A DNA stretch of 64,000 nucleotides from Cryobacterium sp. (GTDB taxonomy: Bacteria > Actinomycetota > Actinomycetes > Actinomycetales > Microbacteriaceae): assembly GCF_025463825.1 (NCBI RefSeq), contig NZ_JAODBG010000082.1:1-64000 (forward strand), in the 5' to 3' direction. Position numbers and translations under genes: made by a program. Of this stretch, positions 9,391 to 61,486 are shown in pieces. The notes beneath the pieces are model-generated. The model was not told the origin of the DNA. It worked only from the letters and a program-made list of their open reading frames with translations, and made no database searches. Within the stretch, counting starts at the first letter, position 1; each line of letters starts with the position of its first letter.

Positions 9391-9458
9391 CAACTGTTCC
9401 CGCTGCGGACAACTGGTCCCGGCACACCGGGTGCAGATGCCCGATTCGGCAACAGTTG
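9391..9458. repeat. 68-bp palindromic repeat, family P1, copy 1
   Basis: This imperfect long palindrome begins CAACTGTTCCCGCTGCGGAC and ends GGCAACAGTTG, with its centre at about ACCGG. It lies between the convergent 3' ends of the histidine phosphatase and the methyltransferase. Three related copies of the same length lie at 15582, 18972 and 22539. When transcribed from either side it would fold into one 30-bp hairpin, so it could act as a two-way terminator. Confidence 0.85.
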
Positions 9459-9471
9459 CGAGGCCGCGTGC

Positions 9472-10632
9472 CTAGCGGCGGGTGGAGACCGTGACCGTGA
9501 ACTTGGTGTTGCGCCCCACCTGGTGGGTCTGGCCCACGATGCGGGTGAGCGCCGGGCGGTAGCCCAGGTGCGTGTTCCACACACACCAGAGTTCGCCGCC
9601 GGGGCGCAACACCCTGGCCGCATCCTCGAATAGCTTCAGCGCGATGCCCGCGTGTACCGACGAGCCGATGTGGAACGGCGGGTTGAGCACGATCAGCTCG
9701 GCCGACGCATCCGCTTGCGCGCTCAACGCATCCTCACGCAGCACCCGCACCCGGTCATCGACGCCGTTGGCGCGCATGGTCGCCGCGGCCGAGGCGACCG
9801 CGGCAGCGGACTGGTCGGTGGCCAGCACCTGCAGGCTCGGCCGGCGCAGGGCGAGCGCGGCGGCGAGCACCCCGGTGCCGCAGCCCAGGTCGATCGCGGA
9901 CGTGGCACCCGGCTTCATGCGGTCGAGGAATTCGAGCAGGTAGCGGGTGCCGATGTCGATGGTCGTGCCCGCGAACGCCGCGCCGTGCGCGCTCACCGTG
10001 AGCCCGAGGTCGGCGTGCTCGACCGACCGCGGCCACTCGGACTCCCCCGACGCCGGCCGGATCGGCTGCGTCGCCAGCAAGACGCGCGACTTCTGCCGCG
10101 CCGGGCTCACCTGCACCTCACCGAAATGCCGCCGCAGCACCTCGTTCATCGCCACGCTCATGTGTTTGATGCGGCCGCCTGCCACCACGGTCACGTCGTC
10201 AGCAGCAAACCGGGCGATGGCGCCGGCCAGTTCATCGAGCGCGGCCAGGCTGCGAGGAAGCTGCAGCAGCACCAGACGGGCGCCGCTGAGCAACTCAGCG
10301 GCCAGTGGCAGGTGCCGGTACGCCCCGGCCAGACCGGGCACGGTGGCCTGCAGATGGGCCGTGTTCAGGTTGAGGGCTCGCTGCCCCGACAGGGCATCCT
10401 GGGACACGCGGATGTCGGCGGGGACGTCCAGCCGCTCACTTAGCTGCGCGGCGGCGGCGAGGGTCAACGCGCCGTAGTGGTCCTCAAGCACCACGACCTC
10501 GCCGGGGCCGGCCGTGGCCAGCGCGGCCGCGGCCTCGTCGAGGATCAGCCGGTCGCTGGCGTCGACGGCGAAGAGGTTCGTCGCCTCGACATCGGGCCGG
10601 CGCCGCAGGCTCTCGAACGGGAAGTCAGGCAT
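9472..10632 (-). CDS. class I SAM-dependent methyltransferase, RsmC/RlmG-like
   Basis: This 386-residue protein has two Rossmann-type halves, as in the 16S/23S rRNA guanine-N2 methyltransferases RsmC and RlmG. The N-terminal half is probably non-catalytic (LILDEAAAALATAGPGEVVV). The catalytic half has motif I AIDLGCGTGVLAAALAL, the acidic loop LATDQSAAAV and the target-base motif LNPPFH (NPPF). The ATG at 10632 (MPDFPFESLRRRPD) is chosen because the frame upstream of it has no family similarity. It is divergent from the SNF2 helicase, with 133 bp between starts. The exact rRNA target cannot be stated from sequence alone. Confidence 0.88.
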   Translation of the reverse strand: MPDFPFESLRRRPDVEATNLFAVDASDRLILDEAAAALATAGPGEVVVLEDHYGALTLAAAAQLSERLDVPADIRVSQDALSGQRALNLNTAHLQATVPGLAGAYRHLPLAAELLSGARLVLLQLPRSLAALDELAGAIARFAADDVTVVAGGRIKHMSVAMNEVLRRHFGEVQVSPARQKSRVLLATQPIRPASGESEWPRSVEHADLGLTVSAHGAAFAGTTIDIGTRYLLEFLDRMKPGATSAIDLGCGTGVLAAALALRRPSLQVLATDQSAAAVASAAATMRANGVDDRVRVLREDALSAQADASAELIVLNPPFHIGSSVHAGIALKLFEDAARVLRPGGELWCVWNTHLGYRPALTRIVGQTHQVGRNTKFTVTVSTRR

Positions 10633-10765
10633 CCGCTCAGAATAGCCGCCCGAACCCGGCCAGGACCGCCCGGCCGGCCCGGAACTCGAACGGCTCCCGA
10701 GGGCCGGTGCGGCGTGGGACAATAAGAGACCCCTGCTCACCGAACCGACACGGAAACCGCACCCC

Positions 10766-13700
10766 ATGGCCCACAACCTCAGCGACCTGCAGATCGCCCG
10801 CCTCGTCGGGCCGCAGGCGTACTCGCGCGGGGTGCGGTATGCCAAGGAGGGCCGGGTCGAAGACCAGATCTGGCAGCTGGGCGGCAGCCGCCTGCTCGGC
10901 ACCGTCGGCGGCACCCAGGCACGCCCCTACGACGTCACTGTCACCTTCCAACAGGATGCCAGCGGCACCGTCGTCCGCGCGTCGGGCACCTGCAGCTGCC
11001 CGGTGGGCCTGAATTGCAAACACGTCGTCGCGCTGCTGCTGGCCAGCCGATCCACCGCCGCCGACCTCGCCCGCGCCCCGCACGCCGCCGCACTGGCCCA
11101 GCGGGCGCGCACCGCCGCGCCCGCCACCTGGCAGAGCGCCCTGGCTCCGCTCACCCGCACCCCAGAGGCCGAACCGACCACCGGAACCGCCCTTGCGCTG
11201 CAGTTCGAGCTGCTGCCGCCCCCGCGCGCCGCCCGGCTGCCCGCCCCCGCGATCTCCCTGGCCCGCCTCGGCGTACGACCCATGGTGCGCGGCAAGAAGG
11301 GCAAGTGGATCCGCGGCAATCTCACCTGGGACAACCTCGCGTACTCGCGCGGCATGCTCAACCGCACCCAGCTGCGCGTGCTCAGCGCCCTCTTCGAGCT
11401 GTACTCGGCGGGGCAGCGCTACCACGTGACCACCGACCCGTGGCTGCACTTGGACGGCTTCGCCAATCGCGCCCTCTGGGGGCTGCTCGGCGAGGCCCGT
11501 GAGGCCGGCATTCCCTTCATCGGCACCACGCCCGGGCAGGACCCGGTGCTCGTCGCCAAGGATCCGGCGGAGCTGTCCCTCGACATCCGGCGGGGCGAGT
11601 TCGGCCTCACCCTTTTTCCCACCCTCTCGCTGGACGGGCGCACCCTGGACCGCAGCGCCCTGGGCTACATCGGCGACCCGGCGCACGGCGTGTTCACCTG
11701 GGCGCCCGACACCGCCGACCTGCGCCTCACCATCGCCCCGCTGGCCCGTCCGGTGGGCCGCGATCTGCGGGTCCTCGCCTCGTCGCAGACCCCGATCACC
11801 GTGCCGCGCGACGAGGAGAACGTCTTCCTGGCCGATTTCTACCCGTTCCTGCGCGGCCAACTCTCGCTCACCAGCACCGACGAATCCTTCGACCTGCCCG
11901 ACACCGCCCGCCCGGTCCTGGCCCTGTCGATCAGCGCCCAGGCGGATGCCCGCATCACCCTGCACTGGGACTGGCACTACACCGGCGGCGCCGGCAGCTC
12001 GGGTGACCCCACGATCGCGCCCCTCCGCGGAGCCGCCACCACACACGCGCCGGCCGGCTACCGGGACACCGCGGACGAGGCCCGCATCTTGCATGCCGTC
12101 ACCGGCATATTTCGCGATTTCCCCGCCCACCTGCCCGCCCTGTTCGCGGCGACCCAGCCCGGCCAGGCCGATGCGGCACCCGCCGCCGCCGGCGCCCCGG
12201 ACTCCCCCGGCCTGCTCCGCGCCGATGCCACCCTCGACGGCGCCCGCATGATCGAATTCCTCGAGACCGTTCTGCCGGTACTCGACGCGGCCGACGACAT
12301 CCTCGTGCAGTTCGTCGGTGAGGCCCCCGACTACCGCGAGGCCGCCGCCCCGCCCACCCTCACCTTCGCCACCTCCGCCCGCTCGGAGAGCCGGGACTGG
12401 TTCGACCTGTCGGTGCGGGTCACCGTCGACGGCGACGACGTGCCGTTCGACGAGGTGTTCCGGGCCCTGGCCACCGGCCAGGAACTGATGATCCTGCAGG
12501 ACGGCACCTACTTCAGTCTGGACCGGCCCGAGCTGCAACAGCTGCGCCGGCTCATCGAGGAAGCCCGCGGCCTGCAGGACTCGCCGAACGACTCGCTGCG
12601 GATCAACCGGGCCCAGTCCGACCTCTGGGAGGAGCTGCAGGACCTCGGCAGCGCCGAAGCCGAGGCCGCCGCCTGGCGCGACACCCTCGCCGGCCTGGCC
12701 GACGGCGCCGAGATCGCCACCCGGCCGCTGCCCGCGGCGGTGAACGCGTCCCTCCGCCCGTACCAGCAGACCGGATACGACTGGCTCGGCTTCCTGCACG
12801 ACACCGGCCTCGGCGGGGTGCTCGCCGATGACATGGGACTCGGCAAGACCCTGCAGGCCATCGCCCTGATCGTCGACGCGCGTGAACGCCAGTCCGACAA
12901 CAAGCCGTTCCTGGTCGTGGCTCCCACCAGTGTGGTGCACAACTGGGCCACCGAATGCGCCCGGTTCGCGCCCGGTCTCTCGGTCGCCGCCATCACCGAG
13001 ACAACCGCCAAGCGCGGCGCCTCACTGGGCCAGGCCGTGGCCACGGCGGATGTCGTGATCACCTCGTATACGCTGTTCCGGCTGGACTTCGACGAGTACG
13101 ACGCCGTCAGCTGGGCCGGCCTGCTGCTCGACGAGGCGCAGTTCGTGAAGAACCACAAGTCGCGGGCGCACCAGTGCGCCAAGCGCCTGCAGGCCCCGTT
13201 CAAGCTCGCCATCACCGGCACCCCGCTGGAGAACAACCTGATGGAGCTGTGGTCGCTGCTCTCCATCACCGCCCCCGGCCTGTTCCCCAATGCCGCCCGG
13301 TTCTCCGAGTACTACCAGCGACCCATCGAGACCCAGGCCGACGGCGACCGGCTCACCCAGCTGCGCCGGCGCATCCGCCCGTTCATGATGCGTCGCACCA
13401 AGGACCAGGTGGCCAGTGACCTGCCCGCCAAGCAGGAGCAGGTGCTCGAGCTCGAGCTGCACCCCCGGCACCGCCGGGTGTACCAGATGCACCTGCAGCG
13501 GGAACGGCAGAAGGTACTCGGCCTGCTCGGCGACCTCAACCAGAACCGGTTCGAGATCTTCCGTTCGATCACCATGCTGCGCCAGCTCAGCCTGGACGCC
13601 AGCCTCTACGACGACAAATATGCCGACATCCCCTCGAGCAAGCTCGATGTGCTGATGGAACTGCTCGAAGACGTCGTCGCGGAGGGGCACCGCACCCTGA

Positions 13701-14143
13701 TTTTCAGCCAGTTCACCGGCTATCTCAGCAAGGTGCGCGCCCGCCTCGACGCCGCCGGCGTCAGCTACTCCTACCTGGACGGCCGCACCCGCAACCGGGC
13801 CGCCGCGATCGACGGGTTCAAGAACGGCGACACCTCGGTGTTCCTGATCAGCCTCAAGGCCGGTGGGTTCGGCCTCAACCTCACCGAGGCGGACTACTGC
13901 ATCCTGCTGGACCCATGGTGGAATCCCGCCGCGGAGGCACAGGCCGTCGACCGCGCCCACCGCATCGGCCAGACCAAGAACGTCATGGTCTACCGGCTGG
14001 TGGCATCCGACACCATCGAGGAAAAGGTGATGGCGCTCAAGGCGGTTAAGGCCAAACTCTTCGACAGCGTGATGACCGACGGCGCCACGGGCGGCACCGG
14101 CCAGGGGCTCACCGCCTCCGACATCCGCGAACTGCTCGAGTAG
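10766..14143 (+). CDS. SWIM zinc-finger SNF2-family helicase (RapA/HepA-like)
   Basis: This 1125-residue Swi2/Snf2 ATPase is likely a dsDNA translocase acting on protein-DNA complexes or RNA polymerase. A SWIM zinc finger (CxC...CxH: Cys76, Cys78, Cys84, His86 in TCSCPVGLNCKHVV) starts the protein. A long variable region follows. The ATPase core has Walker A DDMGLGKT (about residue 690), the DEAQ box in LLLDEAQFVKN (about 789), TGTPLENNLMELW, and the C-terminal lobe with FSQFTGYLSK, LISLKAGGFGLNLT and the arginine-finger block RAHRIGQTK (about 1064). Motifs are complete, so it should be active. It is followed 7 bp later by a DUF1206 gene. Confidence 0.95.
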   Translation: MAHNLSDLQIARLVGPQAYSRGVRYAKEGRVEDQIWQLGGSRLLGTVGGTQARPYDVTVTFQQDASGTVVRASGTCSCPVGLNCKHVVALLLASRSTAADLARAPHAAALAQRARTAAPATWQSALAPLTRTPEAEPTTGTALALQFELLPPPRAARLPAPAISLARLGVRPMVRGKKGKWIRGNLTWDNLAYSRGMLNRTQLRVLSALFELYSAGQRYHVTTDPWLHLDGFANRALWGLLGEAREAGIPFIGTTPGQDPVLVAKDPAELSLDIRRGEFGLTLFPTLSLDGRTLDRSALGYIGDPAHGVFTWAPDTADLRLTIAPLARPVGRDLRVLASSQTPITVPRDEENVFLADFYPFLRGQLSLTSTDESFDLPDTARPVLALSISAQADARITLHWDWHYTGGAGSSGDPTIAPLRGAATTHAPAGYRDTADEARILHAVTGIFRDFPAHLPALFAATQPGQADAAPAAAGAPDSPGLLRADATLDGARMIEFLETVLPVLDAADDILVQFVGEAPDYREAAAPPTLTFATSARSESRDWFDLSVRVTVDGDDVPFDEVFRALATGQELMILQDGTYFSLDRPELQQLRRLIEEARGLQDSPNDSLRINRAQSDLWEELQDLGSAEAEAAAWRDTLAGLADGAEIATRPLPAAVNASLRPYQQTGYDWLGFLHDTGLGGVLADDMGLGKTLQAIALIVDARERQSDNKPFLVVAPTSVVHNWATECARFAPGLSVAAITETTAKRGASLGQAVATADVVITSYTLFRLDFDEYDAVSWAGLLLDEAQFVKNHKSRAHQCAKRLQAPFKLAITGTPLENNLMELWSLLSITAPGLFPNAARFSEYYQRPIETQADGDRLTQLRRRIRPFMMRRTKDQVASDLPAKQEQVLELELHPRHRRVYQMHLQRERQKVLGLLGDLNQNRFEIFRSITMLRQLSLDASLYDDKYADIPSSKLDVLMELLEDVVAEGHRTLIFSQFTGYLSKVRARLDAAGVSYSYLDGRTRNRAAAIDGFKNGDTSVFLISLKAGGFGLNLTEADYCILLDPWWNPAAEAQAVDRAHRIGQTKNVMVYRLVASDTIEEKVMALKAVKAKLFDSVMTDGATGGTGQGLTASDIRELLE

Positions 14144-14150
14144 TCCACTC

Positions 14151-14999
14151 GTGAGCAATCTTCCCGCCGACTCCGAGGCGGACCAGCCGGGCGACGCCCG
14201 CGAGCGGATGAAGCAGGCCGCCCAGCGCGCCCACCGCAGCCGGTCCGTACGCGCCTCGGCCCGGATCGGCCTGCTCGCCAATGGCCTGGTGCACGCCCTG
14301 ATCGGCGGTATCGGCCTGCAGATCGCCAACGGCGCCGCCGGCGAGGCCGACCAGCTCGGCGCGCTCAGCGCCATCGCCACTCGCCCGGGCGGTCTCGCCG
14401 TGCTCTGGCTGTCGACCGTGGCGTTGTGGGGCCTGGCCCTCTGGCAGGGCACCAACGCCGCGTTCAGCGTCGCCCCCAACCGGCGGGTACTGGTGTTCCG
14501 CCGGTCGCTGAATGTGGGCAAGGCGCTCGGCTTCGCCCTGCTCGGGACGGTCACCTTCTGGGTGGCCCTCGGCGCCCGGGCCGGCGGCGCTGACAGCGTG
14601 CGGCGTGCCGACGCCGCCATCGTCGACAGCCCGATCGGCCTGTTCCTGCTGCTCGTGGTGGGCAGCACGGTGGGCATCATCGGCGGCGGTCTGGTCTGGC
14701 GCGGGGTGCGCCGCAACTTCCGTGAGGAGCTGCGTCACCTCTGGGGCCCGACCAAGGTGATCGTGCTCTCCCTGGGTATCTTCGGGCACACCGCGAAGGG
14801 CGTCGCGTTCCTGGTCACGGGCGGGCTGCTGGTCGCCGCGGCGGTGTTCGCCGACTCCCGCTGGGTGGGCGGCCTCGACGCCGGGCTGCGATACCTGCTC
14901 ACCCTGCAGTCCGGGCCGATCCTGCTGAACCTGGTCGCCGCCGGTCTGATCGCGTTCGGCCTCTACCTCGTGGCCAGGGCCGCGTTCCTGCGGCACTGA
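14151..14999 (+). CDS. DUF1206 membrane protein
   Basis: The 282-residue integral membrane protein has a charged N-terminal head (to about residue 40) and then about six hydrophobic segments arranged as three similar pairs. Each pair contains a G-x-x-x-x-G-hydrophobic start such as ARIGLLANGLVHALIGGIG and FGHTAKGVAFLVTGGLLV. This is the DUF1206 layout common in Actinobacteria; its biochemical role is unknown. It starts at a GTG 7 bp after the SNF2 gene stop, so the two are probably co-transcribed. I see no functional link between them. Confidence 0.85.
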   Translation: MSNLPADSEADQPGDARERMKQAAQRAHRSRSVRASARIGLLANGLVHALIGGIGLQIANGAAGEADQLGALSAIATRPGGLAVLWLSTVALWGLALWQGTNAAFSVAPNRRVLVFRRSLNVGKALGFALLGTVTFWVALGARAGGADSVRRADAAIVDSPIGLFLLLVVGSTVGIIGGGLVWRGVRRNFREELRHLWGPTKVIVLSLGIFGHTAKGVAFLVTGGLLVAAAVFADSRWVGGLDAGLRYLLTLQSGPILLNLVAAGLIAFGLYLVARAAFLRH

Positions 15000-15050
15000 C
15001 CGTTACCCGTACGGCCCCGCGGCCTCGCAAGGCTGGGAGTTGGGTGCGGC

Positions 15051-15551
15051 ATGAACATTCGCGAGATTCCGCTCACCGCCGCCGACGGCTCCACCACCTC
15101 GCTGGCCGAGTACGCCGACAAGGTCGTGCTCGTTGTCAACGTGGCCTCCCGCTGCGGCCTCACCCCGCAGTACGAAACCCTCGAGCAGCTGCAGCGCACC
15201 TACGCCGACCAGGGCTTCACCGTGCTCGGCTTCCCCTGCAACCAGTTCGCCCTCGGTGAGACCGGCTCCAGCGAGAAGATCGCCGAGTTCTGCTCCACCA
15301 CTTACGGCGTCACCTTCCCGCTGATGGAGAAGACGAAGGTGAACGGCGGCTCACGGCATCCGCTGTACGCCGAGCTCACCCAGACGCCGGATGATGCGGG
15401 CAAGGCCGGCAAGGTGAAGTGGAACTTCGAGAAGTTCGTGATCTCGCCCGCGGACCCCATCCACCGGTTCCGCCCCACCACCCTGCCGGACTCCCCCGAG
15501 GTGATCGCGGCGATCGAGGCCGGCCTGGCCGAACTCCCCTCCGCGGCCTGA
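15051..15551 (+). CDS. glutathione-peroxidase-family thiol peroxidase
   Basis: This enzyme reduces hydrogen and organic peroxides through a cysteine. The 166-residue protein has the peroxidatic Cys35 in NVASRCGLTPQY, the block GFPCNQFALGE (Gln65, with Cys63 as a possible resolving residue) and KWNFEKFVI (Trp124, Asn125), the normal tetrad of Cys-type Gpx. Bacterial relatives usually take electrons from thioredoxin rather than glutathione, and actinobacteria lack glutathione, so a thioredoxin- or mycothiol-linked role is likely. It is a single gene with a P1 palindrome directly after it. Confidence 0.93.
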   Translation: MNIREIPLTAADGSTTSLAEYADKVVLVVNVASRCGLTPQYETLEQLQRTYADQGFTVLGFPCNQFALGETGSSEKIAEFCSTTYGVTFPLMEKTKVNGGSRHPLYAELTQTPDDAGKAGKVKWNFEKFVISPADPIHRFRPTTLPDSPEVIAAIEAGLAELPSAA

Positions 15552-15581
15552 CCGGCGCCGACGGGCGGCGCCCGTCTGCCC

Positions 15582-15649
15582 CATCTGTTGCCGAAGCGGA
15601 CAATTGCGCCCGGTGTGCCGGCAGCAATTGTCCGGATCGGGAACAGTCA
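15582..15649. repeat. 68-bp palindromic repeat, family P1, copy 2
   Basis: This is the least symmetric of the four copies. It has CTGTTGCCGAAGCGGACAAT on the left and CAATTGTCCGGATCGGGAAC on the right around a GCCCGGTGTGCCGG centre. It sits between the convergent 3' ends of the glutathione peroxidase and the cupin gene. The inner arms (GGACAATTGCGCCCGG) are shared with copies 1, 3 and 4. Confidence 0.8.
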
Positions 15650-15657
15650 CTGCCGGA

Positions 15658-16038
15658 CTAGCTCGTGGGCGGCAGCACGCCGTAGGACGCCGCACTGTGC
15701 ATCTCGATCGCCACATACGGTTCATCGCCGACCACGCGGGCGTTGTGCCCGGGCGGGATCAGGTAGGAGTCGCCGGGCTCGATGCTCGCGCTGGTGCCGT
15801 CGTCGAGCGTCGTCTCCAAGCGGCCGGAGATGCAGTAGCCCACGTGCAGCAGCTGGCAGGAGTTGGTGTGCACGACGGGCTGGATGTTGTCCGCCCACGT
15901 CCAGCCGGGTTGCATGGTCATGCGCCCGATCGAGAATTCGTCCAGGTGGACGAGTTCCAACAGGGTCTTCTCGGGCGCGCGGCGTTCGTCGGGTGAGGAA
16001 TGCGACTTCACCTGCAGGGTGTGCGTTGCGGTGGACAT
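15658..16038 (-). CDS. cupin-domain protein
   Basis: This 126-residue single-domain cupin has the first metal-binding motif in modified form (HTNSCQLLHVGYCISGRLET) and the second as SIEPGDSYLIPPGHNARVVG, with PGH and the conserved Gly/Pro turns. Such proteins are small sugar isomerases, metal-dependent enzymes or ligand-sensing modules; nothing here decides. A Trp-rich WTWADNIQP segment precedes the barrel. The start ATG at 16038 has a plausible GGGAGG ribosome site just upstream on the minus strand. It is a single gene with no operon partner. Confidence 0.8.
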   Translation of the reverse strand: MSTATHTLQVKSHSSPDERRAPEKTLLELVHLDEFSIGRMTMQPGWTWADNIQPVVHTNSCQLLHVGYCISGRLETTLDDGTSASIEPGDSYLIPPGHNARVVGDEPYVAIEMHSAASYGVLPPTS

Positions 16039-16151
16039 GGTTCCCTCCCAGCATTGTGGGCCGATCGAGGGGCTCCGGCACGCGGCCCACTTCCGTGCGC
16101 GGCCTGTGACCCAGCCAGCGTAGACCTGGCCGGGGGCGGCGGTAAGCCCGG

Positions 16152-16853
16152 CTACCAGCCGATCCCAGCACCGGGTACCGAGGTGATCGTGACATCGAAG
16201 CCCGGGTACAGCTCGGGCCGGATGTCGTCGATCAGCTGCTGAAGGGCCGCGCCCTCGAGCACGGTGTGGTCGGTCTTCGTGCCGGAGTCCGGGTAGATCT
16301 CGACCTCCACGGTCACGGTGAAAACGTTCGCCCCGGTGATGAAGGATTGGTCGCCCACGGCCTTCTGCACCAGCTCGGTGACGCGCCTGATCTGCGGCTG
16401 GATGTCGAGCTCGGTGAAACCCACATTCTCGTGCAGCTCGTACGGGTCGCCGACCGCGTCGAGAATGGCGAGGGCCACCGGTGGGGCGTCGGCCTTGAAG
16501 CTCATGCCGAAACCCTCGTCGGCGATATAACCGTAGGCGTAGTCATCGGGGAACGTCGTGCGGATCTGCTCGATGGCGGTGCCGATCGGCCCCTGTCGCG
16601 CCTCGATCTCCGCCTCTTGTTCCGGCGTCAACGCCTCCGTGATCGGCGCGGGCCGGCTCTCCGGCACCGGCGTGGCCGAGATCACCGGGGTGGGCGACGC
16701 GTCCGGTGGCGGAGCGTCGGTAGCGGCGGGTTCGGTCTCGGCTGCCGCCAGCAGCGGCGGCACGGCGAGCAGGGCGACCACACCCACAGCCAGGATGATC
16801 ACCCCGGCCACGATCAACCTTTTTCGCATACCGCTACCGCCATTGCCAGCCAT
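16152..16853 (-). CDS. membrane-anchored secreted protein of unknown function
   Basis: I do not recognise a family. The 233-residue protein begins with a short Gly-rich head, a basic MRKR and a 20-residue hydrophobic helix (about 13-33) that is an uncleaved anchor or signal peptide. A Pro/Thr/Ala-rich linker follows (about 36-70, rich in DAPPPDASPTPV-type sequence), then a globular domain of about 160 residues. No cysteines are present. The layout fits a cell-surface protein exposed outside the membrane. A second start at the internal MRKRL is equally possible. It stands alone between the cupin and a monooxygenase. Confidence 0.65.
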   Translation of the reverse strand: MAGNGGSGMRKRLIVAGVIILAVGVVALLAVPPLLAAAETEPAATDAPPPDASPTPVISATPVPESRPAPITEALTPEQEAEIEARQGPIGTAIEQIRTTFPDDYAYGYIADEGFGMSFKADAPPVALAILDAVGDPYELHENVGFTELDIQPQIRRVTELVQKAVGDQSFITGANVFTVTVEVEIYPDSGTKTDHTVLEGAALQQLIDDIRPELYPGFDVTITSVPGAGIGW

Positions 16854-16937
16854 TGAAACCCCCGTCGTCTGCTGCCGAGGCTAGCCCAGGTGAGCGGATG
16901 CCCGCTGGCCCCCGTTCGCACCGGGACCTTGCGCGCC

Positions 16938-18242
16938 TCAGAAGTCGAGCAGGTTCTCCTTGAGGGTGGCGTGGGTGTATTCGGTGCCGGCCAGGCCGCG
17001 GCGCTGCAGTTCGGGCACCAGGCCGTCCACGATCTCGGCCACAGCCTGGCGGCTGAGCGCGCCGGAGATCAGGAAGCCGTCGCCGCCGACCTGCTCCATC
17101 GCATCCTGCATTTGCTGGGCGACGGTGGCCGGGGTGCCCACGAACGGCACCGCGTTCAGGCTCGGCATCGAGGCGAGCTCGCGCAGGGTGGCGGTGCCGG
17201 CCTCTCCGCCCTTGCGCAGGAATGCCTCAAGGGTGGTGCGGTGACCATTGGTGGTGATCTCGGGAACGGGAGCATCCATATCGAACTGGGTGAAGTCGAC
17301 ATTGGTCAGGGCGCTCAGATGGGCCAGGGAGACGTCCATGCCCTCCGGGGTCATCGTCGCCCGTCGGGCCGCCTTGGCCTGGGCCAGCTCATCGGTCTCA
17401 TCGAGCACCGGGCTCACCACGAACAGCACCTTGCAATCGTCGGGGTTGCGGCCGGTTTCCACCATGAGGGCACGGATGTCGTCCCGGTAGGCCTTCATCT
17501 CGGCGACGCCGGTCGCGGAGCAGATGATGGTGTTGGCATGTTTGGCGGCGAACGCGCGGCCGCGCGGGCTGCCGCCGGCCTGGCAGAGCGTGGGCTGACC
17601 CTGCGGGCCGGGCATCATGTTGAGCGGACCGCGCACCTTGTAGTACTTGCCGTCGTGGTCAATCGGGTGCACCTTCGTGTGGTCGGCGAAGACGCCGGTG
17701 TCGCGGTCGCGCACCAGAGCGCCCGGGTCCCACGAGTTCCACAGGCCCTTGACGACCTCGTATTCGTCGGCCATCTCATAGCGTTCGTCGTGTTCGTAGT
17801 GCAGGTCAAGGCCGAAGTTCTGCGCGGCGCGGTCCTCACTCGAGGTCACCACGTTCCAGCCGATGCGACCGTGGGTGAGGTTGTCGAGGGTGGCGTACAT
17901 GCGGGCCGTGATGAACGGCGGATAGAAGCTCGTTGATGCCGTGGCGATCAGGCCGATGTGCTTGGTGTGCTCGCCGAGCTTGGCCATCAGCGGCAGCGGG
18001 TCCTGCTTGGGGGCGTACATGTTGTACTTCAGGTCGGTCGCCATCGAGCCGCCGTGCACATCGGAGACCATCAGCGAGTCCTCGAACATGACGAAGTCGA
18101 ACTTGCCGCGCTCCATCATCTTCACGATGTCGACGTAGAACTCCCCGTCGATCCAGCTCTCGTCGTTGTTGCCGTCGAACTGGCCGAGCCAGGACGGAGA
18201 GGAGAAGTTGAGGAACCAGCCGAGGTGGAATTTGTTTGCCAT
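16938..18242 (-). CDS. NtaA/SnaA/DszA-family FMNH2-dependent monooxygenase
   Basis: This 434-residue luciferase-like monooxygenase has the group hallmarks KFDFVMFEDSLMVSD (about 49-63), ATLDNLTHGRIGWNVVTSS, YKVRGPLNMMPGPQGQPTLC (a substrate-loop block) and GGDGFLISGALSRQAV near the C-terminus. It shares the order MxxKFHLGWFLNF...SGEP-like start and the QAGGSPRGRAFAAKHA motif with the two genes at 19.4-21.8 kb, so it belongs to the same subfamily. It is transcribed leftward from a divergent region shared with a deacetylase. The upstream 11-mer CGGCGCATTTC also precedes the other monooxygenase operon, which suggests common control. The substrate is unknown; organosulfur or chelating compounds are typical. 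Confidence 0.88.
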   Translation of the reverse strand: MANKFHLGWFLNFSSPSWLGQFDGNNDESWIDGEFYVDIVKMMERGKFDFVMFEDSLMVSDVHGGSMATDLKYNMYAPKQDPLPLMAKLGEHTKHIGLIATASTSFYPPFITARMYATLDNLTHGRIGWNVVTSSEDRAAQNFGLDLHYEHDERYEMADEYEVVKGLWNSWDPGALVRDRDTGVFADHTKVHPIDHDGKYYKVRGPLNMMPGPQGQPTLCQAGGSPRGRAFAAKHANTIICSATGVAEMKAYRDDIRALMVETGRNPDDCKVLFVVSPVLDETDELAQAKAARRATMTPEGMDVSLAHLSALTNVDFTQFDMDAPVPEITTNGHRTTLEAFLRKGGEAGTATLRELASMPSLNAVPFVGTPATVAQQMQDAMEQVGGDGFLISGALSRQAVAEIVDGLVPELQRRGLAGTEYTHATLKENLLDF

Positions 18243-18258
18243 GACGAGAGGTTAGAAA

Positions 18259-18321
18259 CGGCGCATTTCACCTCGGCTACACGATGGCACCTGTGGCATT
18301 ACGCGAGGGCGGCGCAATACG
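18259..18321 (-). promoter_or_regulatory. candidate shared regulatory site upstream of monooxygenase
   Basis: Two short sequences here recur upstream of the second monooxygenase operon (21847-21896). CGGCGCATTTC lies at 18259-18269, 17 bp from the start codon, and GGCGGCGCAATACG at 18308-18321. The 14-mer is in the opposite orientation in the other promoter. Shared motifs before two related operons suggest a common regulator, but the sample is only two. Confidence 0.4.
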
Positions 18322-18373
18322 CGGGCAACACGGGATCGATCCGTCGAAACAGCCGCCGCCTAGCGTATGGGTC

Positions 18374-18973
18374 ATGACAGACACCGGCGCGCCCCGCCCG
18401 CACGGCACCACGGTGGCGTGGACAGTCGACGACGGCACCAACGCCGAGTCGATTCGCCTGTTCGTGGCTGAGACCGGGGTGCGCGTCACCCTGTTCCCCT
18501 GCGGCAGCTACCCCGGCTGGGCCGAGCATGCCGCGCTGTGGCGGCCGCTCGTCGCCAGCGGGCAGGCCCAGGTGGGCAACCACACCTGGTCGCACCGGGA
18601 GTTCACCGACCTCACCGACGACGAAATAATCGAGGAACTCACGCTCAGCGAGGAGTTCTTCCTGAAGCACTACGGCCTGAGCACCAAGCCGTATTTCCGG
18701 CCGCCGAACGGCTCCCGCGACGACCGCACGGATGCCGCGGCGGCGCGCGCCGGCTTCACGGTGCAGGCCATGTGGAGCAGTCTGCTCGTCGAGGGGCCGA
18801 CCCGCACCGCGGAGGAGCTGATCGCCTCGGCCGATGTGGCCTTCCACCCGGGCGGCATCGTGATCGGCCACCTCAACCTTGATGTGATGCAGGATGCGTT
18901 GCCCGCACTGCTGGGCGCCATCACCACGGCAGGCCTCCGCTCGGTCACGATCCGCGATGTCTTCGCCGCCTGA
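18374..18973 (+). CDS. polysaccharide deacetylase (NodB-type) family protein
   Basis: The 199-residue protein is a carbohydrate-esterase-4 NodB-homology domain without a signal peptide, so it is probably cytoplasmic. Motif 1 (normally TFDDG) is WTVDDGTN with the metal/base Asp pair. Motif 2 is NHTWSHREF with the H-x3-H metal site, motif 3 is RPPNGSRDD, and the C-terminal motif is VIGHLNLD. The ATG at 18374 is chosen because the deacetylase fold begins right after it. A P1 palindrome overlaps its stop codon. The target could be a chito-oligosaccharide or another N-acetyl compound. Confidence 0.85.
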   Translation: MTDTGAPRPHGTTVAWTVDDGTNAESIRLFVAETGVRVTLFPCGSYPGWAEHAALWRPLVASGQAQVGNHTWSHREFTDLTDDEIIEELTLSEEFFLKHYGLSTKPYFRPPNGSRDDRTDAAAARAGFTVQAMWSSLLVEGPTRTAEELIASADVAFHPGGIVIGHLNLDVMQDALPALLGAITTAGLRSVTIRDVFAA

Positions 18974-19039
18974 CTGTTCCCGCAACTGACAAATGCGCCC
19001 GGCGTACCGGGCGCATTTGTCCGTTCTGGCAATAGTTGT
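18972..19039. repeat. 68-bp palindromic repeat, family P1, copy 3
   Basis: This copy has a near-perfect core: CAAATGCGCCCGGCGTACCG facing GGGCGCATTTGTCCG, with outer arms GACTGTTCCCG and GGCAATAGTTGT. It begins at the stop codon of the deacetylase gene and ends 17 bp before the stop of the convergent monooxygenase remnant, filling the whole gap. Confidence 0.85.
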
Positions 19040-19056
19040 GACCGATGAAGGCACAG

Positions 19057-19371
19057 TCAATCGTTGGACTGCAGGCGCTGCTTGAACGAGCCCTCGGGCT
19101 GCCTGCCGCGCACGAGGCCACGGCGCTGCAGTTCGGGAACGAGGCCGTCGCAGACTTGGTCGATGTAACGGCGGGTGATCATGCCGCCGCCACCGGCGAA
19201 GATCAGGAAGCCGTCACCGCCGACCTCCTCGAACACCTCCTGCATCTGGTCGGCGACCGTGTCCGGGGTGCCGCAGAGCGGCACTGCCTCGAACTCGTCC
19301 GACGCTGCGGCCTCCCGTAACGGGCGGCCGGCGCCCCACTTCTGAAAATTGTCGGGCACAATGGGATCCAT
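19057..19371 (-). pseudogene. C-terminal remnant of an NtaA/SnaA-type monooxygenase
   Basis: The 104 residues match only the C-terminal quarter of this family: GRPLREAAASDEFEAVPL, GTPDTVADQMQEVFEEVGGD, GFLIFAGGGGMITRRYIDQV and ELQRRGLVRGR. About 330 N-terminal residues, including the flavin site, are missing. It follows two monooxygenase genes on the same strand with a 21-bp gap, so a third tandem gene seems to have lost its 5' part. It has its own ATG (MDPIVPDNFQKWG) and could be translated, but it cannot be a working oxygenase. Its sequence differs enough from its neighbours that it is not a recent duplicate of either. Confidence 0.88.
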
Positions 19372-19392
19372 GTGGATCTTTCAGCCCTGCAG

Positions 19393-20688
19393 TTAATACG
19401 CGAAGAGATTGTCGCGAAAGGTGCCGGGCAGGTACTTGTCGCGGATGAGGCCGCGCCGACGAAGCGCGGGGGCGAGGCCGTCGCAGACCTCGGTAATGTT
19501 CTTGCGGGTCACCGGCATCGCGACCAGGAAACCGTCGCCGCCGGCCTCCTGCATCGCCTCGTCCATCTGCCCGGCCACAGTCTCGGGCGAGCCGACGAGG
19601 GTGACGGATACCGTGCCCCGGCGCTGGGACGCCAGTGCCTCGCGCAGGGTCTTGCCCTCCGCCGCCTTGAGGAAGTCGTCGACCACGCTCTGGTGCCCGT
19701 TGTGCTTGCCGGTGAGGTCTGGAATCTCCTCGTCGAGCGCAAACTTCGACCAGTCCAGGCCGGAGATGTACGACATCCGCATCAGCGAGGCCTCGATGTT
19801 GCCCTCGTTCGCGGCATCCATGCGGCGCTTCTTCTCGATCGCGTCGGCATCCGTGTCGGCGAGCACCGGCTCCACCAAGAACAGCACCTTGACGTCTTCC
19901 CGGCCGAAGCCGATCATGCGCCGCGAGATGACGTCGCGGTAGCGCTTCATGCCGGCCGGACCGTCGGCCGAGGCGAGGATGGTGTCGGCATGCTTTGCGC
20001 CGAAGTCCATGCCGGCCGGGGATCCGCCGGCCTGGCAGATCACCGGGTGGCCCTGCGGCGACGGCACCGTGTTGAGCGGTCCACGCGTCTTGTAGAACTC
20101 GCCGTCGAAGTCGGCCCGGTGCACCTTGGTGTGGTCGGCGAACATGCCGCTCTCCTCGTCGAGGGTGAGCGCGCCGGGCTCCCAGGTGTTCCAGAGCGCC
20201 TTGACCGACTGCACCCACTCGTCGGCCATGCGGTAGCGCAGGTCGTGCTCGTAGTGCTTGGCCAGGCCGTAGTTCTGCGCCGCCGCATCCGGGCTCGCGG
20301 TCACCAGGTTCACGCCCACCCGACCATGGCTGAGGTGGTCGAGGGTGGTCAGCAGCCGCGCGGCCAGGAACGGCGGGTAGAAGGTGGTGGCGGCGGTGGC
20401 CACGATGCCGAGGTGTTTGGTGGCTGCGGCCAGCAACGGGATGAGCGGCATCGGGTCCACTCGCACGATGCCGGCGCGCAGGGACTCCTCCATGGTTCCG
20501 CGGAAGGTGTCCGGAATGACCGAGGAGTCTTCCATCATCATGTATTCGAACCCCGCCCGCTCCAGCGACGTGGCCAGGTCGATGAACAACTGCGGGTTCG
20601 CCAGGTCGGCCGCGGCATTGCCCGACCACTGCTGGTTCCAGCCGTAGGAACCGAAGCCGTAACCCGGGAACCAGCCCATGTGGAACAT
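19393..20688 (-). CDS. NtaA/SnaA/DszA-family FMNH2-dependent monooxygenase
   Basis: This full-length 431-residue member starts MFHMGWFPGYGFGSYGWNQQ and has the expected blocks: AGFEYMMMEDSSVIPDTFRG, LTTLDHLSHGRVGVNLVTAS, FYKTRGPLNTVPSPQGHPVI, CQAGGSPAGMDFGAKHADTI and EAGGDGFLVAMPVTRKNITE. It begins at the base next to the stop of the upstream paralogue (20689), so the pair is almost certainly co-translated. It is the only intact copy of this three-gene tandem set. The flavin reductase partner is not in the window. It probably oxidises a small organosulfur, amine or chelate compound; the exact substrate cannot be read from sequence. Confidence 0.88.
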   Translation of the reverse strand: MFHMGWFPGYGFGSYGWNQQWSGNAAADLANPQLFIDLATSLERAGFEYMMMEDSSVIPDTFRGTMEESLRAGIVRVDPMPLIPLLAAATKHLGIVATAATTFYPPFLAARLLTTLDHLSHGRVGVNLVTASPDAAAQNYGLAKHYEHDLRYRMADEWVQSVKALWNTWEPGALTLDEESGMFADHTKVHRADFDGEFYKTRGPLNTVPSPQGHPVICQAGGSPAGMDFGAKHADTILASADGPAGMKRYRDVISRRMIGFGREDVKVLFLVEPVLADTDADAIEKKRRMDAANEGNIEASLMRMSYISGLDWSKFALDEEIPDLTGKHNGHQSVVDDFLKAAEGKTLREALASQRRGTVSVTLVGSPETVAGQMDEAMQEAGGDGFLVAMPVTRKNITEVCDGLAPALRRRGLIRDKYLPGTFRDNLFAY

Positions 20689-21801
20689 CTAAAATTCCCT
20701 CAGGTTGTCGCGGAGCGTGGCTCCGGTGTATTCGCTGCGGATCAGGCCGCGGCGGCGCAGCACCGGGGCCAGGCCGTCGGCGACCTCGCTGATGTAGCGC
20801 CGGGAGAGCTGGCCGGCGATCAGGAACCCGTCGCCGCCGACCTCCTGCATGGCCTCGTCCATCACGCTGGCGACCTCGTCGACGGTTCCGCTCACCTCGA
20901 GCGAGCCGAGGCGCACGGGCCGCTGGGCGATCTCACGCAGGGTGGTGGTGGGATCTGACCCCTGCAGCATGCCGAGGGTGGTGGAGGACGCCGCATCCGT
21001 GTTGATGGTCGGCAACGGGGCGTCCAGGTCGAACTGTGAAAAGTCGATCCCACTGGTCCAGGAGATCCGGGCGAGGACGTCCTCCACGGTGGTGGCGTCG
21101 ATGCGCTTCTTCTTGGCCACGGCCTCGTCGTGGGTCTCGCCGGCCTGGCAGACCACCGGGCGGCCCTGCGGGGACGGGATGGTGTTCAGCGGTCCGCGGG
21201 ACTTGTAGAACCTGCCCTCGAAGTTCACCGCGTTCACCTTGGCGTGGTCCGCGTAGATGCCGCTCTCGTAGTCGGCGATCACGGCGTCGGGCTGCCACGA
21301 CGTCCAGAGCTGGTTGACCAGGTCGATCCATTCGTCGGCCATCTCGTAGCGCAGGTCGTGCTCGTAATGCTCGTCGCGGCCGAAGTTCTGCGCGGTGCGC
21401 ACATTGTGTGCGGTGACCAGGTTGATGCCGGCGCGACCGTTGGAGAGGTGGTCGAGGCTGGCCATCAGCCGGGCCGCGGCGAACGGCGGGTAGTACGGGG
21501 TGGCAATGGTCATGATCACGCCGAGGTGCCGGGTGGCCTGCATCAGCAGCGGCACCAGGATTGCCGGCTCGTGCTTGGGCGCGTGCGCCGCCTTCGCGAG
21601 GTAGTACTCCGCGGTGCCCTGGTAGGCGTCGGGGATGAACGAGCCGTCCTCGAGCATCATGTAGTCGAAGCGGGCGCGTTCCATCGCCCTGGCGAGCTCG
21701 ATATAGAGGTCCGGGCTGGTCCAGTCCCTGGCCGGCTCACCTGACCAGTCCTTGCCCCAGCCCGGAACCGTGTAGTTGAGAAACCAGCCCATGTGGAACA
21801 T
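20689..21801 (-). CDS. NtaA/SnaA-type monooxygenase with internal in-frame deletion
   Basis: The start (MFHMGWFLNYTVPGWGKDWS) and the end (GATLRDNLREF) are normal for the group, but the protein is 370 residues instead of about 430. Aligned with the adjacent paralogue, CQAG is followed directly by ETHDEAVAKKKRID. About 56 residues corresponding to GSPAGMDF...VEPVLA are absent, with the join near position 21138. The lost segment is part of the barrel and contains the strongly conserved G-S-P and AKHAD motifs, so activity is doubtful. The frame is kept. It heads the operon with the 431-residue paralogue (adjacent bases) and the remnant at 19057. Confidence 0.85.
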   Translation of the reverse strand: MFHMGWFLNYTVPGWGKDWSGEPARDWTSPDLYIELARAMERARFDYMMLEDGSFIPDAYQGTAEYYLAKAAHAPKHEPAILVPLLMQATRHLGVIMTIATPYYPPFAAARLMASLDHLSNGRAGINLVTAHNVRTAQNFGRDEHYEHDLRYEMADEWIDLVNQLWTSWQPDAVIADYESGIYADHAKVNAVNFEGRFYKSRGPLNTIPSPQGRPVVCQAGETHDEAVAKKKRIDATTVEDVLARISWTSGIDFSQFDLDAPLPTINTDAASSTTLGMLQGSDPTTTLREIAQRPVRLGSLEVSGTVDEVASVMDEAMQEVGGDGFLIAGQLSRRYISEVADGLAPVLRRRGLIRSEYTGATLRDNLREF

Positions 21802-21846
21802 TCGGATGCCCTGCCCTTCGTCGTTTGTCAGAACCCATTCCAGTGG

Positions 21847-21896
21847 CGGCGCATTTCCCGAAAGGTGACGCGGCGTTAACGCCGTATTGCGCCGCC
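21847..21896 (-). promoter_or_regulatory. candidate regulatory region of the monooxygenase operon
   Basis: It contains CGGCGCATTTC (21847-21857), the perfect palindrome GGCGTTAACGCC (21872-21883) and CGTATTGCGCCGCC (21883-21896). The first and the last (inverted) also occur upstream of the monooxygenase at 16938. It lies between the divergent monooxygenase operon and the RibD-like gene, so it may serve either. Confidence 0.4.
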
Positions 21897-21954
21897 TCCT
21901 GCCTGGCCGCGACCGGGCGACCGGAGTAGCGTCAGGGCGCAGGAGGCACGCACC

Positions 21955-22518
21955 ATGGCGAAACTCATCTACACCGCAATCACCTCACTGGACGGCTACG
22001 TGGCCGACGCCGAGGGGAACTTCGACTGGGGCGCCCCGGATGACGAAGTGCACACCTTTGTCAACGACCTGGAGCGTTCGGTCGGCACCTACCTCTACGG
22101 GCGAAAACTGTACGACGTGATGGTGGCCTGGGAAACCATGCACCAGGGCGACGACGAGCTGCCCGCCGTGATGCGCGACTACACCGCGATCTGGCAAGCC
22201 GCCGACAAGATCGTCTACTCCAGCCGCCTGGCCGAACCGGCGAGCCGGCGCACCCGCATCGAGCGCACCTTCGACCCGGATGCGGTACGGGCACTCAAGG
22301 AATCGGCATCCGGTCACCTGTCGATCGGTGGCCCGCACCTGGCCGCGCAGGCCTTCACTGCCGGACTCATTGACGAGGTCCAGCTGTTCATCAACCCCGT
22401 TGTCGTCGGTGGCGGGATCAGCTTCCTGCCGGACGGCCTGCGCGTCGAGCTCGAGTTGAAAGACGAGTACGCCTTCCGCAACGGAGTCGTCTACCTGGGC
22501 TACAGCGTGCGCCGGTAG
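21955..22518 (+). CDS. dihydrofolate reductase-like (RibD C-terminal domain) protein
   Basis: This 187-residue protein has the RibD-C/DHFR-like reductase fold. It starts AKLIYTAITSLDGYVAD, the usual opening of this family, and has LYGRKLYDVM, GHLSIGGPHLAAQAF (NADPH-binding Gly motif) and LFINPVVVGGGISFL near the end. Stand-alone members are often annotated as deaminase/reductase of unknown substrate. An AGGAGG ribosome site sits 8 bp before the ATG. It is divergent from the monooxygenase operon, so it could share its regulation. A P1 palindrome follows the stop. Confidence 0.85.
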   Translation: MAKLIYTAITSLDGYVADAEGNFDWGAPDDEVHTFVNDLERSVGTYLYGRKLYDVMVAWETMHQGDDELPAVMRDYTAIWQAADKIVYSSRLAEPASRRTRIERTFDPDAVRALKESASGHLSIGGPHLAAQAFTAGLIDEVQLFINPVVVGGGISFLPDGLRVELELKDEYAFRNGVVYLGYSVRR

Positions 22519-22538
22519 GTTCCCGCCGGTCAGCCGCG

Positions 22539-22606
22539 CAACTGTCGCCGAATCGGACAATTGCACCCGGCGCACCGGGCGCAAATGTCCGCACGGGCAA
22601 CAGTTG
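22539..22606. repeat. 68-bp palindromic repeat, family P1, copy 4
   Basis: This is one of the best-preserved copies. CAACTGTCGCC and CGGACAATTGCACCCGG on the left mirror GGGCGCAAATGTCCG and GGGCAACAGTTG on the right. It is the only copy between tandem genes (RibD-like stop at 22518, PfkB start at 22633), still at the 3' end of the upstream gene. Confidence 0.85.
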
Positions 22607-22632
22607 GCGAGCCGGCTGGGGATAATGGGGCC

Positions 22633-41522: not shown

Positions 41523-41613
41523 ACCCGCGCTGCGCAGCCAGCCCGGCTCCGCCACCTGCGCAACGCGGGTGCTGCGCCGCTACGCGGGTGGCGTGCCACG
41601 GGCGTAGCGGCGC
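41523..41613. terminator. tandem strong hairpins between convergent genes
   Basis: ACCCGCG (41523-41529) pairs with CGCGGGT (41564-41570). Immediately after it, GCGCCGCTACGC and GCGTAGCGGCGC (41574-41613) form a perfect 12-bp arm around GTGGC-GT-GCCAC. They lie in the 235-bp gap between map and the convergent small gene. They probably end transcription from both sides. No T-run is present, as usual in high-GC actinobacteria. The rest of the gap (41614-41745) shows nothing further. Confidence 0.65.
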
Positions 41614-41745
41614 CTGACCCGCGCGGCGCGGCTAGCGCAGCGGCGTGGTGGCGAGTACCGGTGATCGGGAACACCTCCGCCGACCAGCCCGCCAAGTTGC
41701 ATACAACCACGCTCGTCGTCGGACCGGAATCGGAAAGCGACCGAG

Positions 41746-54750: not shown

Positions 54751-54880
54751 TTTCAGGCAGATCCCGTCGCTCGCCTGTTCGTACAGGCAAAGTCGCGACT
54801 CGCCGCATCGGCGGGCCGCTGCCGACCGAGTGGCCGACACCCTGATGCTGCGGCTGCCGTGATCCTCACCCCAAGCGGAA

Positions 54881-54957
54881 CTAAAGGCGGAGATGTTCCC
54901 GAAACGCCGTAGCTCAGGGCGGCGGACGCGGCGTGTCCCGGGAATCTCCGCCTTTAG
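54881..54957. repeat. 77-bp palindromic repeat, family P2, copy 1
   Basis: CTAAAGGCGGAGATGTTCCC faces GGGAATCTCCGCCTTTAG, with inner arms ACGCCG and CGGCGTGTCCCG. It sits between the convergent DUF2255 gene and the biotin carboxylase gene. A related copy is at 61391. The sequence shares no arms with the P1 family. It probably ends transcription on both sides or is a small mobile palindrome. Confidence 0.85.
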
Positions 54958-54970
54958 GTTCAGTTGAGGG

Positions 54971-61369: not shown

Positions 61370-61390
61370 CCCTCCCGCCCCCGCGGATCA

Positions 61391-61466
61391 CTAAAGGCGG
61401 AGAATGTCGGGACACGCCGCATCCGCGGCCTGCGCAGGCGGCGGGTTGAGACAATCTCCGCCTTTA
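61391..61466. repeat. 77-bp palindromic repeat, family P2, copy 2
   Basis: CTAAAGGCGGAGAATGTCGG on the left faces ACAATCTCCGCCTTTA on the right, with ACGCCG and GGCGGCG in the arms. It lies 21 bp after the GntR stop and directly before a 5'-truncated VOC gene. The outer 13 bases are identical to copy 1 at 54881; the interior differs. Confidence 0.85.
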
Positions 61467-61486
61467 CGAATCGGCACCCTAGCGGT

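Follow-up and report, generated by a model that had tools for sequence, protein, structure and literature searches.

The 64,000-nt window analysed here, taken from a contig of Cryobacterium sp., holds four copies of a 68-bp palindrome, P1, which were found to belong to a high-copy element whose design, two inverted halves, each with two related 12-13-nt units in tandem, is shared family-wide. We see an even chance that P1 is a Microbacteriaceae family akin to repetitive extragenic palindromes (REPs) and to their hairpin-forming doublets (REPINs), without the REP-associated tyrosine transposase (RAYT), and that it acts as a bidirectional hairpin at gene 3' ends read by a lineage-specific factor. 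This reading builds on the architecture, copy number and placement observed for P1, the age of many of its sites and the coordinated change of its arms and tandem units between genera. P1 transcribed from either side would fold into a strong hairpin and would end or protect the 3' ends of the preceding genes on both strands, the factor, a protein or other, would recognise the repeated unit, and this factor, or rare copying by it, would keep the copies of one genome alike. Such a factor is suggested because base pairing couples the left and right arms but not the two tandem units, U1 and U2, with each other; since no RAYT was found, it would differ from the one known for REPINs. More tentatively, and with rather less than even confidence, P1 may represent a family-wide REPIN-type system in which a non-RAYT partner reads four 12-nt units and co-evolves with them, resulting in a genus-specific spelling.

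The P1 element consists of U1 (12 nt), a 7-nt spacer, U2 (13 nt), a 4-nt loop of the YRYR type and the mirror half, with up to 32 potential pairs and an internal loop. Over 146 copies (79 from the genome that carries the window, hereafter the own genome, and 67 from G022, a sister species), the information content was high over the 68 columns and fell at both edges. The consensus half in Cryobacterium reads CAACTGTTSCC nnnn CGGACAATTG nnn CCGG, followed by the loop, which was CACA, TGTG, CGCA or TGCG in 72 of the 81 own copies and was found in both orientations. U2 repeats U1 directly at a distance of 19 nt: in own copies, the two were 66% identical at this offset compared with at most 40% at ten other offsets, and the tandem units are visible in the copy at 9391 as CAACTGTTCCCG and CAACTGGTCCCGG. 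The same comparison across 21 other genera, with the best-paired copy representing each genus, gave 66% identity at offset 19, and none of ten other offsets exceeded 37%. Furthermore, U1 was 66% identical to U2 within its own element and 45% identical to the U2 of other genera, with none of 5000 permutations as high. The repetition of U1 in U2, with both changing together between genera, is a feature newly described here, and the spellings differ by lineage, for example CGTTTTCACCCG (G164), CAGTAGTnCCCG (G218 and G269) and CGTTTGTGCCC (G118). In 464 kb of own sequence, 161 of 163 half-element matches fell inside full copies, and the whole palindrome is therefore the unit.

The four window copies had been claimed by a sequence-only reading as intergenic palindromes of about 68 bp. 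All are present and each is 68 bp long, although the third starts at 18971 instead of 18972. As also claimed, no copy lies elsewhere in the window: a position-weight scan of the + strand of the 64 kb, with a symmetric matrix, gave only four scores above 5, at 82-97, and the reversed window sequence gave no score above -20. The inner-arm pattern had seven window matches at up to 3 mismatches, compared with 1.44 expected (0 of 100 shuffles reached seven), and each window copy folded better than all 200 of its own shuffles (z -3.2 to -7.5). Chance palindromes were rejected on the basis of these shuffles, the folding scores, the weight scan and a backward-pattern control. In this control, the P1 half pattern gave 79 forward and 72 reverse matches in the own genome, whereas the backward pattern gave 0 and 1.

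The sequence-only reading had staked the family on further copies in the genome, and a weight-matrix scan of the own stretches found at least 81 distinct ones; a covariance model from 21 copies gave at least 150 strand matches at about 80 places. A survey of 37 Cryobacterium genomes, the own one included, found 16 with at least 18 strand matches, 6 with one or two and 15 with none (values of 81 among these per-genome counts are to be read as at least 81). A family model built on 31 copies of four genera matched, at E ≤0.001, 32 of 199 sampled Microbacteriaceae genomes, in 23 of 85 genera and again including the own one, several of them with one or two weak matches only, and an order-wide sample of 198 genomes gave three single weak matches besides the own genome. 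The copies are clustered in G022, where 15 neighbour gaps among the 81 copies listed were below 2 kb compared with 3.1 expected at random. On its contig G022:C1, clusters lie near 2.97-3.0 Mb, 0.52 Mb and 0.55 Mb, some pairs being 124-242 bp apart.

The claim that both arms vary together, and the compensatory change by which it was to be judged, held strongly between genera and only weakly within a genome. In the 31 copies of the four-genera set, which favours pairing as it was found by pairing-aware searches and models, 84.1% of the cells paired compared with 68.9 after shuffling, and 154 cells were changed on both sides compared with 62.3 (0 of 500 shuffles as high). In columns 16-25, the stem, pairing exceeded that of shuffled arms in both the own genome (z 2.1) and G022 (z 3.9). 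Among the 67 G022 copies, columns 7, 21, 22 and 23 paired above shuffles and columns 9 and 12-14 below; the internal loop at 12-15 paired less than shuffled arms in G022 (z -3.4) and weakly so in the own genome (z -1.4).

The placement of P1 was determined for 79 of the 81 own copies, two near a stretch end being dropped, by simple codon-usage gene calls made in this analysis. Thirty-four copies lie between convergent genes, 38 between co-oriented and 5 between divergent ones, with an undefined neighbour in 2, and a facing stop was found within 60 nt in 68 of the 79, at a median distance of 16 nt. For co-oriented copies, the upstream stop was closer than the start of the following gene in 36 of 38 cases in the own genome, 32 of 35 in G022, 8 of 9 in G008 and 6 of 7 in others, that is, in 82 of 89 over the four Cryobacterium sets. 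The same applied to other genera, where 49 of 61 copies had a stop within 60 nt and the stop was the closer neighbour for 26 of 31 co-oriented ones. In 15 cases, the stop codon forms the first three bases of P1. As for a strand-specific RNA element, the ratio of loop orientations relative to transcription in the own genome (25:11) was suggestive, but that in G022 (14:20) was not in line with it, and this candidate was set aside.

To judge the age of the sites, we compared the own genome with G022, which is 89% identical in the SNF2 gene. Twenty-seven own copies were mapped on both sides in G022 stretches, and 24 of them have a G022 copy and 3 do not, which does not represent a rate because these stretches were mostly fetched for containing copies, so that sharing is inflated. 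At the 24 sites with a copy in both genomes, identity was 97.1% in the 30 most conserved columns and 38-44% in the ungapped flanks, a figure lowered by indels; the other columns were 68.6% identical compared with 62.8% with shuffled partners (0 of 2000 as high). Because these 24 own copies are matched in the sister species with conserved columns at 97% and flanks at about 40%, many P1 sites are judged to be old. The positions appear to be inherited, and the conserved columns appear to be held by selection or by within-genome homogenisation, which are not separable on these data. The closest paralogs were 0.956 identical in the own genome and 0.971 in G022, indicating no fresh burst.

Gain and loss were also followed at single sites. 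The 9391 site has a copy in C. zongtaii (L074:8637) and a short left-end trace, read by eye, in Cryobacterium sp. 1639, the 15582 site is filled in G004, G030 and G023 and empty in L071, L072, L074, L093 and G022, and the 22539 site has no copy in L074, L089, L093 and G022. At the site of a probable remnant at 14997, intact copies are present in Cryobacterium sp. 1639 (L071:14217), G007 and G023, and the remnant TATCTGTT was read by eye in G004 where G023 has an intact copy; losses of P1 thus seem to leave traces. Stretches of 400 kb from each of G004, G030 and G023 contain 1, 7 and 3 copies, respectively, and clean empty sites were not obtained from them. Among the sites that could be aligned, one has a remnant, another is filled in all three genomes and a third in two. 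At a further one, a G030 copy begins with the stop codon, which stands alone in G004; the difference could be a gain or a loss. At another, S3, G023 has TTC/GAA and CGC/GCG, which are paired, G004 has ATC/GAA and CAC/GCG, mismatched at two pairs, and G030 has ATC/GAT and CAC/GTG, re-paired at both; the probable order from G023 through G004 to G030 fits template switching as well as compensatory change.

Among known systems, P1 is most readily compared with REPs and REPINs. Excerpts of the literature describe these as extragenic, hairpin-capable inverted doublets in tens to hundreds of copies, which sit close behind the stop codons of convergent and co-oriented genes and persist long (PMC3733652, PMC8049555, PMC3116915). 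P1, likewise extragenic in tens of copies or more and an inverted doublet that folds into a hairpin behind stop codons, bears out the suggested REP-like nature as far as these traits are set out in passages of PMC3733652. It differs in that GTAG/CTAC was found within 6 nt of the end in only 2 of 79 own and 1 of 67 G022 copies, in that no Y1/RAYT gene was found in the 25 genus genomes searched, and in that it keeps its 68-bp length across genera with each half a tandem direct repeat. P1 resembles REP/REPIN in its working but is not filed as a member because two defining features, the GTAG end and the RAYT, fail. CGTC-tagged REPs, as outlined in part of PMC3733652, have a REP-like placement without a dedicated transposase, and P1 is similar to them in both respects. 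Their stems of 8-9 bp, loops of 4-5 nt and unpaired CGTC end (the same source, in part) are not matched by the far longer stem of P1, and CGTC/GACG was found near the end in 8 of 79 own and 4 of 67 G022 copies, with TGTC/CCTC left out of the count.

The proposal of a bidirectional terminator is plausible from the placement and from the lack of a consistent strand bias, P1 being a strong stem-loop a median of 16 nt past stops and often between convergent genes; the four window copies lack the U-tract, and the P1 copies have a common sequence that a plain terminator does not need. Terminators of high-GC actinobacteria are often without a U-tract. Miniature inverted-repeat transposable elements (MITEs) are short and non-autonomous, with an inverted-repeat structure and a variable copy number. 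P1 has these traits as well, but it has no target-site duplication, its parent transposon was not found, and the palindrome is the entire element. Integron attC sites, like P1, are structured hairpins with unpaired parts inside and are located at the 3' ends of genes; P1 differs in being dispersed over the genome and in the outcome of the integrase search given below. The view that no named family matches P1 holds for Rfam, which gave no match in the window above the gathering score, so that a known RNA family was rejected there, and for the searches made of the open-licence PubMed Central literature, which gave no description of the P1 family.

The main rival, which we consider unlikely but hold to be the strongest of the alternatives, is a purely selfish REP-like or MITE-like element moved by an unidentified transposase, for which gene 3' ends are merely harmless and the hairpin has no host function. 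The patchy copy number across the genus, presence and absence at matching sites, the G030 copy on a stop codon that may be a gain, the clustering in G022 and the sharp edges all agree with it. However, the Y1/RAYT transposase (PF01797) was found in none of 25 genus genomes, the own one included and the other P1-bearing genera not searched, although the same search matched in 5 of 14 control genomes, and a RAYT-driven REP was rejected for this genus sample. No target-site duplication was found in the 146 copies when direct repeats 2-9 nt long were sought in the flanks at 13 offsets of the boundary: the top excess, 12, compares with 6.6 on average and 13 at most in shuffles, and each of the eight highest excesses listed stayed at or below the maximum of its shuffles. 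Nor was a recurrent mobiliser gene recognised when 552 neighbouring open reading frames (ORFs) were clustered, the genome not being searched exhaustively; the largest cluster, of 16 members, was not taken for a mobiliser, a judgement made without a search to identify it. The absence of a fresh burst among paralogs and the 97% identity of conserved columns at old shared sites with decayed flanks also argue against a selfish element, and the suggested non-autonomous transposon, for which neither target-site duplication, recurrent neighbour nor RAYT was found and many sites appear old and shared, was not borne out. A phage or plasmid vector was likewise rejected for the Cryobacterium spelling, as its half pattern had no exact match in IMG/VR and the copy at 22536-22609 had no blastn match in plasmid and phage collections, with other spellings not searched in either.

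It is rather improbable that P1 is a double-stranded DNA site, for instance for chromosome organisation or a transcription/replication boundary, at which a lineage-specific protein binds the four 12-nt units and the hairpin is incidental; this would account for the joint change between genera of the four related units in each element, for arms that vary largely independently within one genome, and for the lack of G-T enrichment and of a consistent strand preference, but only 2 of 163 half-element matches stand alone, the arms co-vary between genera as in a hairpin, and the tight spacing to stop codons is unexpected for an architectural site. Another candidate is arm matching by mutation only, through replication template switching, a process described in part of PMC8794818, by which one arm is repeatedly rewritten to match the other and the loop is flipped. 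The paired, mismatched and re-paired series at S3 and the loops in both orientations are in line with it, yet it couples only the left and right arms and leaves the joint change of U1 and U2, the 30 conserved columns and the below-chance internal-loop pairing in G022 unexplained, so that without structural selection it is a quite unlikely account of P1, and it may well act in addition. Least probable are integron-like attC recombination sites that let cassettes move: P1 resembles them in having a hairpin with internal loops that follows stop codons and in some cases overlaps them, and some G022 clusters have gene-sized spacing, but the copies are dispersed over contigs and no integron integrase (TIGR02249) over the curated cut-off was found in any of 57 genus genomes, all of which, like all 14 controls, gave matches below it. 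This candidate was rejected for want of a cognate integrase over the cut-off.

Several observations weigh against a REP/REPIN-like 3'-end hairpin as the explanation of P1. Because the family is patchy in the genus, with 15 of 37 genomes without a match and 6 with one or two, P1 is dispensable, and insertion tolerance alone could explain its placement behind stop codons. No U-tract terminator was scored at any of the four window copies, and this speaks against an intrinsic terminator of the classical kind. In 21 copies of the own genome, the arms paired no better than in shuffles, and in 79-81 copies only columns 8, 19, 23 and 28 paired better; G-T pairs were not enriched. In 37 copies pooled from several genomes, the internal loop showed the opposite of G022 (z +3.6), which combining genomes can by itself produce, and an internal loop kept open was not retained, as it was significant in G022 only. 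At the 24 shared sites, only 12 cells had changed at both bases and were paired in the two species alike, compared with 20.4 with shuffled partners, and 153 cells were paired in one species only, while the matching G022 copy ranked in the top three by similarity at 7 of the 24 sites and in the lower half at 10. The G022 stretches that match the window have 0 copies compared with 4 in the own genome. The pairing bias of the four-genera set and the inflated sharing with G022, both given above, are to be counted here as well.

Most of what is known of REP elements comes from other phyla, and the GTAG type is tied to one transposase family. In the portions of PMC3733652 that deal with distribution, GTAG repeats are attributed to Proteobacteria, Cyanobacteria, Chloroflexi and the PVC group, and untagged REP-like sequences are noted in, among others, M. 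tuberculosis. A family-wide 68-bp plan in actinobacteria, with no RAYT found in the genus sampled, therefore represents an independent case for studying why repeats persist at gene ends, and it raises the question of whether P1 is there as a parasite, as a 3'-end signal or as both. The four-unit design predicts a factor whose specificity differs by genus.

Two solo P1 halves were seen to be cut just past the loop, at the same point, by the same insertion sequence (IS) with an rve integrase domain (L160:1-670 on contig C7 and L203:8177-8337 on contig C67). Seven right ends of this IS and its relatives were read, of which these two abut a P1 half and the other five (own C49, G069, G016 twice and G035 once) do not; G016 and G035 have no P1 match. 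REPs are known IS targets, as stated in part of PMC1525189.

The coordinates of the P1 features in the window are given below. As the sequence-only reading had noted, three copies are between convergent genes and one begins at a stop codon; the copy at 22539 is between co-oriented genes.

Table. P1 copies and a probable remnant in the window, with their parts and neighbouring genes.
Feature	Positions	Strand	Parts and position relative to stops	Neighbouring genes
P1 copy 1	9391..9458	.	U1 9391-9402, spacer 9403-9409, U2 9410-9422, loop CACA 9423-9426; 27 nt past the stop of the 8746-9363 gene	convergent genes
P1 copy 1, right half			U2' 9427-9439, spacer 9440-9446, U1' 9447-9458	
P1 copy 2	15582..15649	.	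loop TGTG; 30 nt past the stop at 15551	convergent: glutathione peroxidase (+) and cupin (-)
P1 copy 3	18971..19038	.	loop CGTA; starts on the TGA stop 18971-18973	polysaccharide deacetylase gene (owner of the TGA), convergent with ORF 19057-19371 (no Pfam match)
P1 copy 4	22539..22606	.	loop CGCA; 20 nt past the upstream stop	two + strand genes, RibD_C and PfkB
Probable P1 left-end remnant, 18 nt	14997..15014	+	starts on the DUF1206 stop codon; read by eye	

The SNF2-type protein at 10766-14143 has its named relatives, at 90-91% amino-acid identity, in Cryobacterium sp. 1639, N22, zongtaii, adonitolivorans, arcticum SK-1 and lactosi. Because these nearest named relatives are Cryobacterium, the host genome is placed, on this protein comparison, in Cryobacterium near C. 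arcticum (Microbacteriaceae). Between P1 copies, the region 16400-21900 contains three luciferase-like monooxygenase genes and is variable among close relatives.

Other repeats were also observed in and near the window. Another palindrome family, larger than P1 at about 93-101 bp in full length, is present at 54869-54969 and 61383-61475; its two copies share CTAAAGGCGGAGA...TCTCCGCCTTTA arms and an inner CGGGACACGCCG-like stretch. Its arms gave five matches at up to 1 mismatch in the 464 kb of own sequence, four of which lie in the two window copies, compared with one for the backward control. The stretch of C. arcticum SK-1 that matches the 9391 site (L073:8033-8698) contains several GGTCTCGACAAGCTCGACC repeats and TTTACGGACTTCGCAC palindromes, which are other repeat families; the own 464 kb has three matches of GGTCTCGACAAGCTCGACC and none of TTTACGGACTTCGCAC. 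Finally, an inverted repeat with 47-nt arms that are 77% complementary is present at 41546-41641, the longest among 25 listed with arms up to 100 nt apart.

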